Assembly: GCA_017645655.1 (NCBI GenBank)
Contig: JAGCNZ010000055.1
Coordinates: 1 to 38,137 of the forward strand
DNA length: 38,137 bases
Direction of reading: 5' to 3'
DNA from: Bacteroidaceae bacterium
Lineage (GTDB): Bacteria > Bacteroidota > Bacteroidia > Bacteroidales > Bacteroidaceae
The notes under the pieces were generated by a model. The model saw nothing but the letters and a program-made list of their open reading frames with translations, was not told where the DNA came from and did not search any database. The translations under genes were made by a program, and so were the position numbers. Shown one piece after another: positions 4,632 to 38,056 of this stretch; position 1 is the stretch's first letter, and every line of letters begins with the position of its first letter.

Positions 4632-4663
4632 AATCGATTTACTATTTAATTATTTACGATTTA
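4632..4663 (-). repeat. AT-rich TTTACGATTTACTATTT-type spacer
   Basis: The short gap between the DUF177 gene and rpmF, running into the DUF177 3' end, is built from variants of TTTACTATTT and TTTACGATTT. The same words recur near 30,500, so this is a dispersed low-complexity spacer repeat. Confidence 0.5.
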
Positions 4664-5143
4664 CTATTTTACGTTTACTAGTTCCCTCAAGGCTTCCCAT
4701 CTTGGGTCGCTTTCCTTCTCTTCTTGCGAAGTCAGAGAGGGGCAGTCGGGATGTACGTGCCGCAGCGGAATCTGGAGAGCAGCGAACTCGTAGATGTTCC
4801 AAGCCACGTTGATGACGCCCTCGCGCTCCGGAATGGTAACGACATCGCCGTCGTCGGCATATTCGTCGCCCATCCTGACACGCAATGTGCACTGAGCGTC
4901 GATGGGTTGAGACATGGGCTCAAGGCAACGGTCGCACGTCACTTCCACCTCACCCTTCAGCTGAAACTCCAGCTCATAGGCACCAGATGTACGCTTCACC
5001 CGTAATGCTACATCGAGTAGACCCTGCTTTATTTCCTGTCCCTGGACGGCGGAGAAGAAGTCATTGTCAGCCTGCCATTGGTACGACACAGTATCAGTGG
5101 CCATGCCTTTCAAATCAACTTTATAACCGTCCAGTTTTCCCAT
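4664..5143 (-). CDS. DUF177 (YceD-like) rRNA-accumulation protein
   Basis: About 159 residues. Family members are linked to 23S rRNA and ribosomal protein metabolism and usually precede rpmF, as here. The CDRCLEP motif and the C-terminal PLRHVHPDC segment match the family. The frame could start six codons earlier at an ATG inside the promoter box. I choose the ATG at 5143 (MGKLDGYKVDLKG) because that is the family's conserved start and because a perfect TACTTTTG box ends only 7 bp before it. It is the first gene of the ribosomal/lipid cluster. Confidence 0.9.
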   Translation of the reverse strand: MGKLDGYKVDLKGMATDTVSYQWQADNDFFSAVQGQEIKQGLLDVALRVKRTSGAYELEFQLKGEVEVTCDRCLEPMSQPIDAQCTLRVRMGDEYADDGDVVTIPEREGVINVAWNIYEFAALQIPLRHVHPDCPSLTSQEEKESDPRWEALRELVNVK

Positions 5144-9696: not shown

Positions 9697-9769
9697 GGAC
9701 TGGAGTCCCACCGTGGTGGGACTGGAGTTTTCCCGTGGTGGGACTGCAGTCCTCCCACGGTGGTACTGA
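9697..9769 (+). repeat. 22-bp tandem repeat, three full copies
   Basis: Three consecutive 22-bp units begin at 9697, 9719 and 9741 (each GGACTGSAGT...), followed by a partial fourth. Units 1 and 2 end CGTGGTG; unit 3 has the inverted core CCCACGG. Unit 1 also contains GTCCCACC/GGTGGGAC (9705-9722), a near-perfect palindrome. It lies between the GH43 gene and the promoter of the outer membrane protein. Confidence 0.85.
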
Positions 9770-12788: not shown

Positions 12789-12820
12789 CAGCGTGCTGCG
12801 AAAAAAATCGCAGCACGCTG
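12789..12820. terminator. Terminator hairpin after the outer membrane protein gene
   Basis: A perfect 12-bp stem (arms 12789-12800 and 12809-12820) with an 8-nt A-rich loop. TGTTTAT follows on the plus strand and TATTTTTC on the minus strand, so it may act in both directions. The arm words CGTGCTGCG and CGCAGCACG recur at 35,633-35,719. Confidence 0.75.
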
Positions 12821-12835
12821 TGTTTATAACCTAAG

Positions 12836-12928
12836 CACGTGACAATTCAAATTGACCCACGTGATAAATTCATTTTACCCACGTGATATTTGAAATATTA
12901 CACGTAATATTTTCATTTTACCCACGTG
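12836..12928 (+). repeat. CACGTG array A, five sites at ~22-bp spacing
   Basis: CACGTG at 12836, 12858, 12880 and 12923, with a one-base variant CACGTA at 12901; start-to-start spacing is 22, 22, 21 and 22 bp. Spacers are AT-rich, most ending TTTTACC or TTGACC. It fills the gap between the convergent outer membrane protein and korB genes, just after a terminator. Part of it is nearly identical to array B at 37,842. Confidence 0.9.
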
Positions 12929-16546: not shown

Positions 16547-16945
16547 CTTTTTGCTATTTCGATTTTTGACGCGACACGAGACGAAATAGAGAGAAACACG
16601 CCTCGAAAACCGACTCGACTGGTTGATTTTTCCAACTTGACTGGTCGCGTTTGCAAACATCACACGTGATGTTGACAATCTTCACACGTGATATTTTGCA
16701 TTTCTGCGTGTCTCGACACCCGTCCAAACAGCCCAAAACCTCCACTTTCCTGTCCTGTTTCTACCCTCTTTTCGAGTTGAATCTGGACTCGGAATTTGTA
16801 AGTCTCATAGCCTCAACAAGATACGAAAATGCACAAAAACGGCGTTCTTTTGGGCCGCGACCTGCCTCGGGCATTTTCGCGCCATTCTCAGAGGGTTAGG
16901 AAAAGTCAGAGTGTAAGCAAACCTGACGTTTTTGCTGACATAATG
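16547..16945 (+). repeat. Non-coding direct repeat, left copy (element C)
   Basis: Part of a ~700-bp gap between tRNA-Arg and susC. It aligns colinearly with 26,659-27,057 at a constant offset of 10,112 bp. Matching words occur from end to end: AAATAGAGAG, CCTCAAC, TACGAAA, TGTAAGCAAAC and TGACA.AATG. Short frames inside the two copies translate to unrelated peptides, so the conservation is non-coding. The remaining gap holds only the tRNA and susC promoters. Confidence 0.75.
16663..16690 (+). repeat. CACGTG pair inside element C
   Basis: CACGTG at 16663 and 16685, 22 bp apart, in the contexts AAACATCACACGTG and TCTTCACACGTG. A degenerate third site (TGCGTG) follows at 16705. Confidence 0.8.
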
Positions 16946-26658: not shown

Positions 26659-27057
26659 CTATTTGCCATTTCGGATTCAAACGGTCCGCGGAGCAAAATA
26701 GAGAGGGAAACGCCACAAAAACTGACTTGGCAGGGTGAAAATTCCGACGCGGCACGGGATGATTTCAAACATCACAGGGGATGTTTTCAAACATCACGTG
26801 CCATATTTGCAAAAACAACGCGCCTCGTCGACCCTCAAAACACGCCGAAAAAGGAGTTTTTGCACTCAAAATCGGCTGATTTCACTCCCTGCTCCGCACC
26901 TTGCAAAACTTAAACGCCACAACCTCAACGTGTTACGAAATCCGACAAAATTCCTGTAAATCCGTACCTAGGTACAGGCCTCCGATTCCGACGCCCGTTT
27001 TGGAGCACTGGAAAAATTCAGGATGTAAGCAAACAATACACTTCACCTGACAAAATG
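26659..27057 (+). repeat. Non-coding direct repeat, right copy (element D)
   Basis: This fills most of the ~570-bp gap between the convergent GH85 and GH27 genes. It is colinear with 16,547-16,945 at a constant 10,112-bp offset, in the same orientation, with almost no insertions or deletions. With its partner it brackets the susC-susD-GH85 locus. No gene is seen in it. Confidence 0.75.
26753..26800 (+). repeat. Degenerate CACGTG array inside element D
   Basis: CACGGG at 26753, CACAGG at 26773 and an exact CACGTG at 26795 (spacing 20 and 22). The last two follow TTTCAAACATCA, the same context seen inverted in arrays A and B. Confidence 0.65.
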
Positions 27058-30493: not shown

Positions 30494-30496
30494 CTA

Positions 30497-30558
30497 ATTA
30501 ATTTACGATTTGACGATTTACTATTTACTATTTATTTACGGTTTAGTAATTTAACTAT
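30497..30558. repeat. AT-rich TTTACTATTT-type spacer repeat
   Basis: The gap between the kinase and NagX-like genes is composed of TTTACGATTT, GACGATTTACTATTT and TTTAGTAATTTAAC variants, the same words as at 4632-4677. A short CCTCC-TTT-GGAGG hairpin beside it is too weak to call a terminator. Confidence 0.5.
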
Positions 30559-33704: not shown

Positions 33705-33715
33705 CAATAAAGGTT

Positions 33716-33830
33716 ACAGGTTATTGGTTATAGGTTATTGAAGCCCTATAAACTCAACAACCAATAAGCAATAACCAATAAACATTCAAAAGACTCAATA
33801 ACCAATAAACAATAACCAATAAACATTCAA
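33716..33830. repeat. GGTTATTGG / CCAATAACC repeat cluster
   Basis: The gap between the first two FKBP genes holds GGTTATTGGTTATAGG (33715-33736) and, downstream, inverted copies. An exact 21-bp direct repeat lies at 33769-33789 and 33810-33830, with a third partial copy between them. The arms could pair over a ~30-nt loop. No gene here. Confidence 0.7.
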
Positions 33831-33838
33831 CAAACAAC

Positions 33839-35632: not shown

Positions 35633-35719
35633 AAAACGCAGCACGCCTAGTTGGCAAATATCACGTGTTAAATTTCAAATATCACACGTGAAGTTGACAA
35701 TCATCACGTGCTGCGTTTT
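35633..35719 (+). repeat. CACGTG array E within a long-loop terminator-like inverted repeat
   Basis: A perfect 13-bp inverted repeat (AAAACGCAGCACG at 35633-35645; CGTGCTGCGTTTT at 35707-35719) encloses 61 bp. The right arm runs into TTTTTT, as a terminator would. The enclosed part has CACGTG at 35662 and 35685, and a third at 35705 overlaps the right arm. TTTCAAATATCACACGTG inside matches the reverse complement of the spacers in arrays A and B. Confidence 0.8.
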
Positions 35720-37715: not shown

Positions 37716-37736
37716 CAATCTGCACTCAACAACATG

Positions 37737-37774
37737 CGGGCGAAGGCTACCAATCTGCCTTCGCCCGCTTTTTC
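37737..37774 (+). terminator. Rho-independent terminator of the GH97 gene
   Basis: A perfect 12-bp stem (arms 37737-37748 and 37758-37769), a 9-nt loop and TTTTT at 37770-37774. It lies 21 bp after the stop codon. Confidence 0.92.
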
Positions 37775-37841: not shown

Positions 37842-37934
37842 CACGTGATAAATTGATTTTACCCACGTGATATTTGAAATATTACACGTGATAATTTCAT
37901 TTTACCCACGTTATAAATTTTATTCACCCACGTG
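37842..37934 (+). repeat. CACGTG array B, five sites at ~22-bp spacing
   Basis: CACGTG at 37842, 37864, 37885 and 37929 and a variant CACGTT at 37907; spacing is 22, 21, 22 and 22 bp. The 65 bp from 37842 differ at about three positions from 12858-12922 in array A. Both arrays follow a terminator. The gap of ~350 bp from GH97 to tRNA-Leu holds only this array, the terminator and the tRNA promoter. Confidence 0.9.
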
Positions 37935-38018
37935 ACGTTTTGAGACTCCGCTGCCGACGTTTGTCCCCGAAACACACAAAAAAACACAAAAAGCAAGGGT
38001 AAACCAATAATTTTTCAA

Positions 38019-38056
38019 TTTTCACTTTTCACTTTTCACTTTTTGTTGTACCTTTG
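38019..38056 (+). promoter_or_regulatory. tRNA-Leu promoter with upstream TTTTCAC heptads
   Basis: Three contiguous TTTTCAC heptads (38019-38039), then TTTTTGTTG and the -7 box TACCTTTG (38049-38056). The layout mirrors the tRNA-Arg promoter. The tRNA starts 11 bp after the box. Confidence 0.7.

Follow-up and report, generated by a model that had tools for sequence, protein, structure and literature searches.

Arrays of two-fold symmetric DNA sites in gut Bacteroidales are helically phased, and their step is kept across different unit sequences, across genera and across orthologous gene borders. Successive units lie 22 bp, sometimes 21 bp, apart, or two helical turns, which places corresponding points on roughly one side of the double helix. 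The two-turn step is fixed and the letters vary by species, which suggests that a protein with a two-turn ruler reads or builds the arrays. We tentatively propose, at somewhat less than even confidence, that the arrays form a repeat class set by geometry: a two-turn dyad register would be kept at gene ends, its letters would be replaced lineage by lineage, and behind it would stand an undescribed protein ruler of the Bacteroidales, architectural or copying.

The window analysed here, 38,137 bp in length, is the whole of contig C49 of a 2.74-Mb draft genome (G000; 84% complete). A sequence-only reading of the window had described two arrays of five CACGTG-type sites at 21–22 bp steps, each with one site off by one base, and direct reading of the coordinates confirms both (features below are unstranded unless a strand is given). 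Array A (12836–12928) has CACGTG at 12836, 12858, 12880, and 12923 and the one-base variant CACGTA at 12901, giving steps of 22, 22, 21, and 22 bp, and lies between convergent genes for an OMP beta-barrel protein (+) and a TPP-enzyme domain protein (−). Array B (37842–37934) has CACGTG at 37842, 37864, 37885, and 37929 and the variant CACGTT at 37907, giving steps of 22, 21, 22, and 22 bp, and lies downstream of a GH97 gene. The stretch common to the two arrays, previously put at 65 bp, extends over about 70 bp with three differences, and a repeat search aligns them at 89% over 89 bp. Both arrays also lie, as had been claimed, 3' of a terminator-like hairpin: for array A, a predicted hairpin at 12789–12820 with a weak T-run and with arms, GCGTGC and GCACGC, that are themselves 22 bp apart; for array B, a terminator hairpin with a T-run at 37736–37773 (+). 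The window as a whole contains 22 CACGTG sites vs. 11.6 expected, a number matched in none of 100 shuffles. We conclude that arrays A and B are real and are part of a larger system.

Four more 22-bp features are present in the window. Array C (35636–35716), between FKBP and GH97 genes, has GCACGC at 35641 and CACGTG at 35662, 35685, and 35705, with steps of 21, 23, and 20 bp; its outer arms (35636–35645 and 35707–35716) base-pair with each other, and a T-run comes after them. Array D (16663–16690) consists of two CACGTG sites 22 bp apart, at 16663 and 16685, with a tRNA-Arg gene (−) on one side and a TonB-dependent receptor gene (+) on the other. The remaining two are 22-bp repeats that have no run of perfect CACGTG: an intergenic repeat at 9697–9768, identified by Tandem Repeats Finder as 3.3 copies of a GC-rich unit that lacks CACGTG, and a degenerate array at 26756–26813, 3' of a GH85 gene and its terminator, with one CACGTG at 26795. 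Separate short repeats, of 7, 14, 15, and 41 bp, occur in the window at 33711–33833, 2452–2492, 4637–4680, 30495–30553, and 38012–38043, and a lag-7 peak is also seen in intergenic DNA of the sample of this genome.

Genome-wide, CACGTG-N14-18-CACGTG pairs (spacing 20–24 bp) number 529, vs. 2 for a reversed control pattern. A 352-kb sample of the genome, comprising the window and further stretches and covered to 92% by called ORFs, contains 172 CACGTG sites, 124 of them outside called ORFs. A partner 20–24 bp downstream is present for 81 of the 172; the next-best of 64 palindromes has 4 such partners. Distances within these pairs are 22 bp (61 pairs), 21 bp (15), 20 bp (2), 24 bp (2), and 23 bp (1), and there are no pairs in the sample 25–41 bp apart. 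The scan of CACGTG spacing that had been suggested with the sequence-only reading therefore yields a 22-bp peak, genome-wide and also in relatives, and the accompanying comparison of intergenic with coding DNA places paired CACGTG mostly outside genes, with only 3 of the 36 arrays in the 352 kb located within called ORFs. The further suggestion that CACGTG might be a methylation-linked site is unsupported. The observed/expected ratio of CACGTG in coding DNA is 0.73, rank 15 among 64 palindromes in this genome, and ratios below this value are observed in four of nine other genomes (G005, 0.47; G004, 0.58; G121, 0.64; G070, 0.71); CACGTG is without special avoidance in coding DNA, and we reject a restriction or methylation target on this basis.

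The two-turn phasing proposed from the window is genuine: the 22-bp step is found genome-wide, is largely intergenic, and recurs in relatives. CACGTG, in contrast, does not hold as the general determinant. Relatives, sister species included, show the same step with other cores, in some cases at the same sites, and we therefore reject CACGTG as the defining element. At least one CACGTG pair is found in 46 of 120 relatives, with 0 to 92 per genome within the genus and with only three genomes outside the genus, having 1 to 7 each; the exact pattern CACGTG-N16-CACGTG is found in 41 of 251 genomes of the family. Hallella multisaccharivorax DSM 17128 contains 43 CACGTG pairs at spacings of 14–44 bp, vs. 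2 for the control, and Phocaeicola oris also carries 22-bp arrays. The control pattern in the search of the 251 genomes, GTGCAC-N16-GTGCAC, gave surprisingly high counts in four genomes from two other genera, and a search for GTGCAC pairs with spacing left free in one genome (G258) placed 44 of 50 pairs, among the matches listed, at exactly 22 bp. Another genus thus has GTGCAC cores at step 22. Autocorrelation of intergenic DNA, which requires no choice of core, peaks at lag 22 in this genome (z = 26), in G051 (21), G027 (15), G070 (13), G065 (11), G016 (8), and G005 (8), in RUG13783 (6), and in Phocaeicola oris (8); the signal is weak in G042, and neither G004 nor a small Reichenbachiella sample has lag 22 among its highest-ranking lags. 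Unit sequences are of many kinds, and a single genome, G051, holds several unrelated unit families (CCGCACGCGG, ACATGT, GGCACGTTAAG, and CTGCAG).

Evidence on the step itself was taken from searches that allowed the step to vary; one contig pattern scan had its gap fixed at 22 bp, so that the step of its matches is not evidence, and a first scan of dyad-to-dyad distances gave few peaks and is not main evidence. Scanning lags of 15–40 in 12 sampled genomes, with a simple custom ORF caller and our own identity thresholds, as also used for the steps below, we find period 22 in 125 of 164 non-coding tandem-repeat segments and lag 21 in 14, with no other lag represented by more than 5. A walk from unit to neighbouring unit, begun from segments with lags of 21–23 and with ties broken towards 22, gave 449 steps, of which 390 are 22 bp, 56 are 21 bp, 2 are 18 bp, and 1 is 25 bp; none is 20, 23, or 24 bp. 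Sites at whole helical turns, given these starting segments, account for 446 of the 449 steps, and steps of 21 or 22 bp, never 20 or 23 bp, are what one helix face would require. Where neighbouring units are identical at just 13–15 of 22 positions, the step is still 22 bp in 138 of 169 cases.

These numbers bear on a further alternative, namely that ordinary mutation, by replication slippage together with palindrome correction, generated the arrays with neither a ruler nor a function. Ordinary mutation would account for the tandem identity of units, for their local symmetry, and for a copy number that varies from 2 to 13 units per array. However, slippage spreads periods, yet here one period dominates, with 56 steps at 21 bp and none at 23 bp. 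Moreover, with identical treatment, lag-22 segments are absent from samples of six other Bacteroidales families (25–100 kb each) and from 50 kb of E. coli, and a single one is present in a seventh other family (G101). We consider ordinary mutation a very improbable explanation.

Comparison of orthologous gene borders reveals phased repeats of different sequence at corresponding places. At the array A site, at the 3' end of the neighbouring gene, phased repeats of other sequence are present in G005 and G051 and, in weaker form, in G070; with a strict array threshold of 24-of-36, G005 and G051 pass and G070 fails. No equivalent of array B occurs in the relatives compared here, and its place is empty of arrays in G070, G008, and G051. 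The sequence-only reading had named absence of the arrays from close relatives, with no conserved sites, as a refutation, and the result for array B counts against that reading. In the gap between the FKBP and GH97 genes, the site of array C, phased repeats are present in G000, G005, G070, G008, and G051 and, in weaker form, in G064, a two-arm hairpin is present in G013, and no phased repeats are present in G072 or G052; the strict threshold is passed only by G005, G070, G008, and G051. At site D, an operon-like gap, arrays of six unit families occur in 10 of 14 species and are absent in 4. At site E, between convergent genes, arrays are present in G070 and G051 and a two-arm pair in G005; G069, G012, and G024 carry arrays beside other neighbours, and there is no array in G072, G027, G008, G052, G013, or G065. 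In several species at site D (loci L394, L402, L415, L401, and L403), the array enters the 3' end of the gene and thereby gives the protein a species-specific C-terminal tail encoded by array DNA; since the reading frame continues into the array, we discard the idea that each array begins right at a stop codon. At a further site D locus (L399, in G064), a 9-bp repeat, AAGCCCCAT, replaces the 22-bp array.

Across four of these sites, units from the same genome are more alike than units from the same site. Likeness averages 14.5 of 22 positions within a genome (19 pairs), 11.6 of 22 for the same site in different genomes (69 pairs), 11.4 for unrelated units (165 pairs), and 10.1 for shuffled units, and the within-genome excess over same-site likeness was reached in 0 of 2000 label permutations; of the 27 site/genome sequences in this test, 23 passed the array threshold, those failing being site A of G070, site C of G000 and of G064, and site E of G005. 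Array positions are partly retained, and array sequences turn over separately in each genome.

According to one reading of this pattern, the arrays are a selfish, REP-like satellite, in which a putative copying enzyme with a 22-bp step spreads palindromic units in gene-end spacers with no gain to the host. Units homogenised genome by genome, multiple unit families within one genome, and presence or absence among relatives are in line with this reading, as are dispersed near-identical copies: in G051, a three-unit element with ACATGT cores occurs in near-identical form at five places in 100 kb (L297, L298, L299, and L300). Entry into gene 3' ends likewise makes the arrays look more like an invading repeat, and the arrays are depleted between divergent genes (12 of 101 arrays vs. 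73 of 331 gaps, p=0.03, both neighbours known), a REP-like distribution. At one of the G051 loci, L299, the ACATGT element is embedded in an array from a different family and, as judged by eye, keeps its register (21 and 22 bp).

REP and BIME elements, of the GTAG and CGTC superfamilies, are, in the available part of the account in PMC3733652, short palindromic units that occur in many copies, are extragenic and mainly downstream of genes, and have lineage-specific sequences; the arrays are likewise extragenic, palindromic, and mostly downstream of genes. However, REP and BIME elements are described in the same part of that account as sequence families in which many units are closely spaced and oppositely oriented, whereas the arrays are direct tandem repeats with a fixed 22-bp step and a changing sequence. 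The associated transposase, RAYT (Y1_Tnp, PF01797), has no match in the G000 draft (84% complete) or in G005, G008, G012, G016, G051, or G070, and is present in 63 of 120 genomes searched, including the array-rich G027. In-phase GTAG tags are found in 5, and CGTC tags in 15, of 111 arrays. We reject a RAYT-REP system on the grounds that several array-bearing genomes gave no RAYT match and that in-phase GTAG and CGTC tags are few. Array A has no match in plasmid and phage records, and the unit pattern of this genome has no match in viral contigs; for lack of such matches, we reject a plasmid or phage origin. A separate viral search gave 102 stretches, of which several of the longest appear from their matches to be 24-bp repeats and may be coding. 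Further points against a selfish satellite are that a step of 21–22 bp between strongly diverged units requires either constraint that is still acting or copying in the very recent past, and that an unsystematic look noticed neither defined ends of an element nor a duplicated target. Even so, we regard a selfish palindromic satellite as a distinct possibility, to which we give about one-third of our credence.

The units are dyad-symmetric, with a symmetry of 0.756 vs. 0.657 in column-permuted arrays (n=111), and the folding energy of the first 60 of the 111 arrays has z of about −3 relative to a column-permuted control. Symmetry at the level of RNA would have a different meaning: the arrays would be hairpin arrays at transcript 3' ends, serving as extended or bidirectional terminators or as mRNA-stability elements built of 22-nt half-stems. 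The location of arrays at 3' ends of genes, the presence of several arrays (in G051, in G005, and array C of the window) with an A-run first and a T-run last that fold as one stem, and the 22-bp separation of the arms of the terminator by array A all point in this direction. However, a selected RNA structure would put G-U, not A-C, on the coding-sense strand, and the arrays do not show this. In 61 arrays (24 ++, 34 --, and 3 ?-), sense-strand mismatches comprise 88 G-T and 99 A-C, vs. 57 and 32 in 63 terminator-like hairpins (Fisher p=0.01), and the better-folding strand is the sense strand in 21 of 58 arrays and the antisense strand in 37, with no sense-strand advantage in co-directional arrays. 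Six arrays outside this count, for which only a right-hand + neighbour is known, do have more G-T than A-C on the + strand (25 vs. 9). Arrays A and B, furthermore, lie beyond separate terminators, arrays also occur within the operon-like gap at site D, RNA hairpins would not forbid steps of 20 or 23 nt, and no Rfam family apart from a tRNA is matched in the window at the gathering threshold. On the mismatch and folding counts, we reject RNA hairpins as the main constraint, and consider RNA hairpin arrays an unlikely explanation overall; a secondary RNA role is possible, since many arrays belong to terminator-like stems. Because the units are dyad-symmetric without a coding-strand bias, a constraint at the level of DNA is favoured.

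In placement, the depletion of arrays between divergent genes is accompanied by a higher proportion between convergent genes (31 of 101 arrays vs. 73 of 331 gaps, p=0.08). Mean intervals between arrays are 5–14 kb in the contigs measured, and spacing is more even than in random gaps in 6 of 7 contigs (combined p=0.01; single contigs p=0.01 to 0.55; contig C8 of G000, with two arrays only, left out), which is a weak hint of evenness.

The A/T content of the arrays varies with period 22, and its 11-bp harmonic is 0.076 vs. 0.091 in permuted arrays (n=111). Nothing here thus indicates that the DNA is wrapped or bent, and we reject gyrase-like or nucleosome-like DNA with one-turn periodicity. The E. 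coli gyrase motif is likewise phased DNA, with GC content phased at 10.75 bp, and gyrase sites are enriched 3' of units with high transcription (PMC6379681, in the part available); it differs from the arrays in that the array A/T period is 22 and not 11.

The reading that we consider most likely, with a selfish palindromic satellite as its close rival, is that the arrays are a helically phased platform for a putative DNA-binding protein with a drifting sequence preference, although our confidence in it stays a little below even. According to this reading, a putative dimeric (or oligomeric) protein would sit on every second turn of the helix and would need the register, and its sequence preference would drift, such that new units would come to dominate the arrays of a lineage, with the step and many positions retained. 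More speculatively, the platform may have an architectural role, marking the ends of transcription units every ~5–9 kb in array-rich genomes. A putative protein that touches DNA at each second turn best explains the fixed step together with the strand-neutral symmetry, and the retention of the step between strongly diverged units favours a phased platform over a selfish satellite. Several observations count against a phased platform: the unrelated unit families of G051, which a single sequence-specific protein would not easily explain; the lack of an array in some close relatives at a shared site (4 of 14 for site D); the entry of arrays into gene 3' ends; the lack of an 11-bp A/T periodicity; the weak evenness of array spacing; and the steps of 21, 23, and 20 bp in array C.

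If a protein reads the arrays, it might be a factor of the nucleoid or of gene boundaries in a major lineage of the gut, and its natural sites would number in the hundreds; a simple prediction is that a half-turn shift should abolish reading. If no host protein reads the arrays, they would point to copying machinery whose ruler is fixed at two turns. With either reading, how extragenic palindromes of bacteria arose and what they do become directly testable questions. Sequence is the usual basis for defining bacterial repeat families and for searching for them, and a family in which the step alone is conserved would consequently be missed.

Several other systems share features with the arrays. 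The parS sites of chromosomal ParB have a 16-bp, dyad-symmetric consensus with a CACGTG core, and the array units share this core and the dyad symmetry; however, the arrays have other flanks and comprise hundreds of tandem sites. The parS consensus is found within two mismatches at 5 places in the draft genome, vs. 9 for a control, and on this count and on the difference in flanks we reject a parS/ParB centromere. One near-perfect parS-like site, TGTTTCACGTGAAACT, is present at C11:14419–14434 of G000 (L027), as an isolated CACGTG outside the arrays. Plasmid iterons and parC-type arrays are direct repeats at whole helical turns that hold one protein in register, but they are single-locus and keep one sequence, whereas the arrays occur about once per 5–14 kb in the contigs measured and have interchangeable sequences. 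Among the literature titles listed, none describes 22-bp phased palindrome arrays, and the available part of a paper on P. gingivalis repeats (PMC5771137) contains no such array. The TAACTGA direct repeats of Beggiatoaceae and some Bacteroidetes are abundant and intergenic (PMC4679880, in the part available); unlike the arrays, with their 22-bp palindromic units of many sequences and their bias to gene ends, they are, in the same part, a single-sequence heptamer mostly just upstream of start codons. In an unrelated actinobacterium, Nocardioides acrostichi (G138; L043 and L069), 22-bp direct repeats of the CACGTGAAAACTGGCGACGGGT type are present at many places in the genome.
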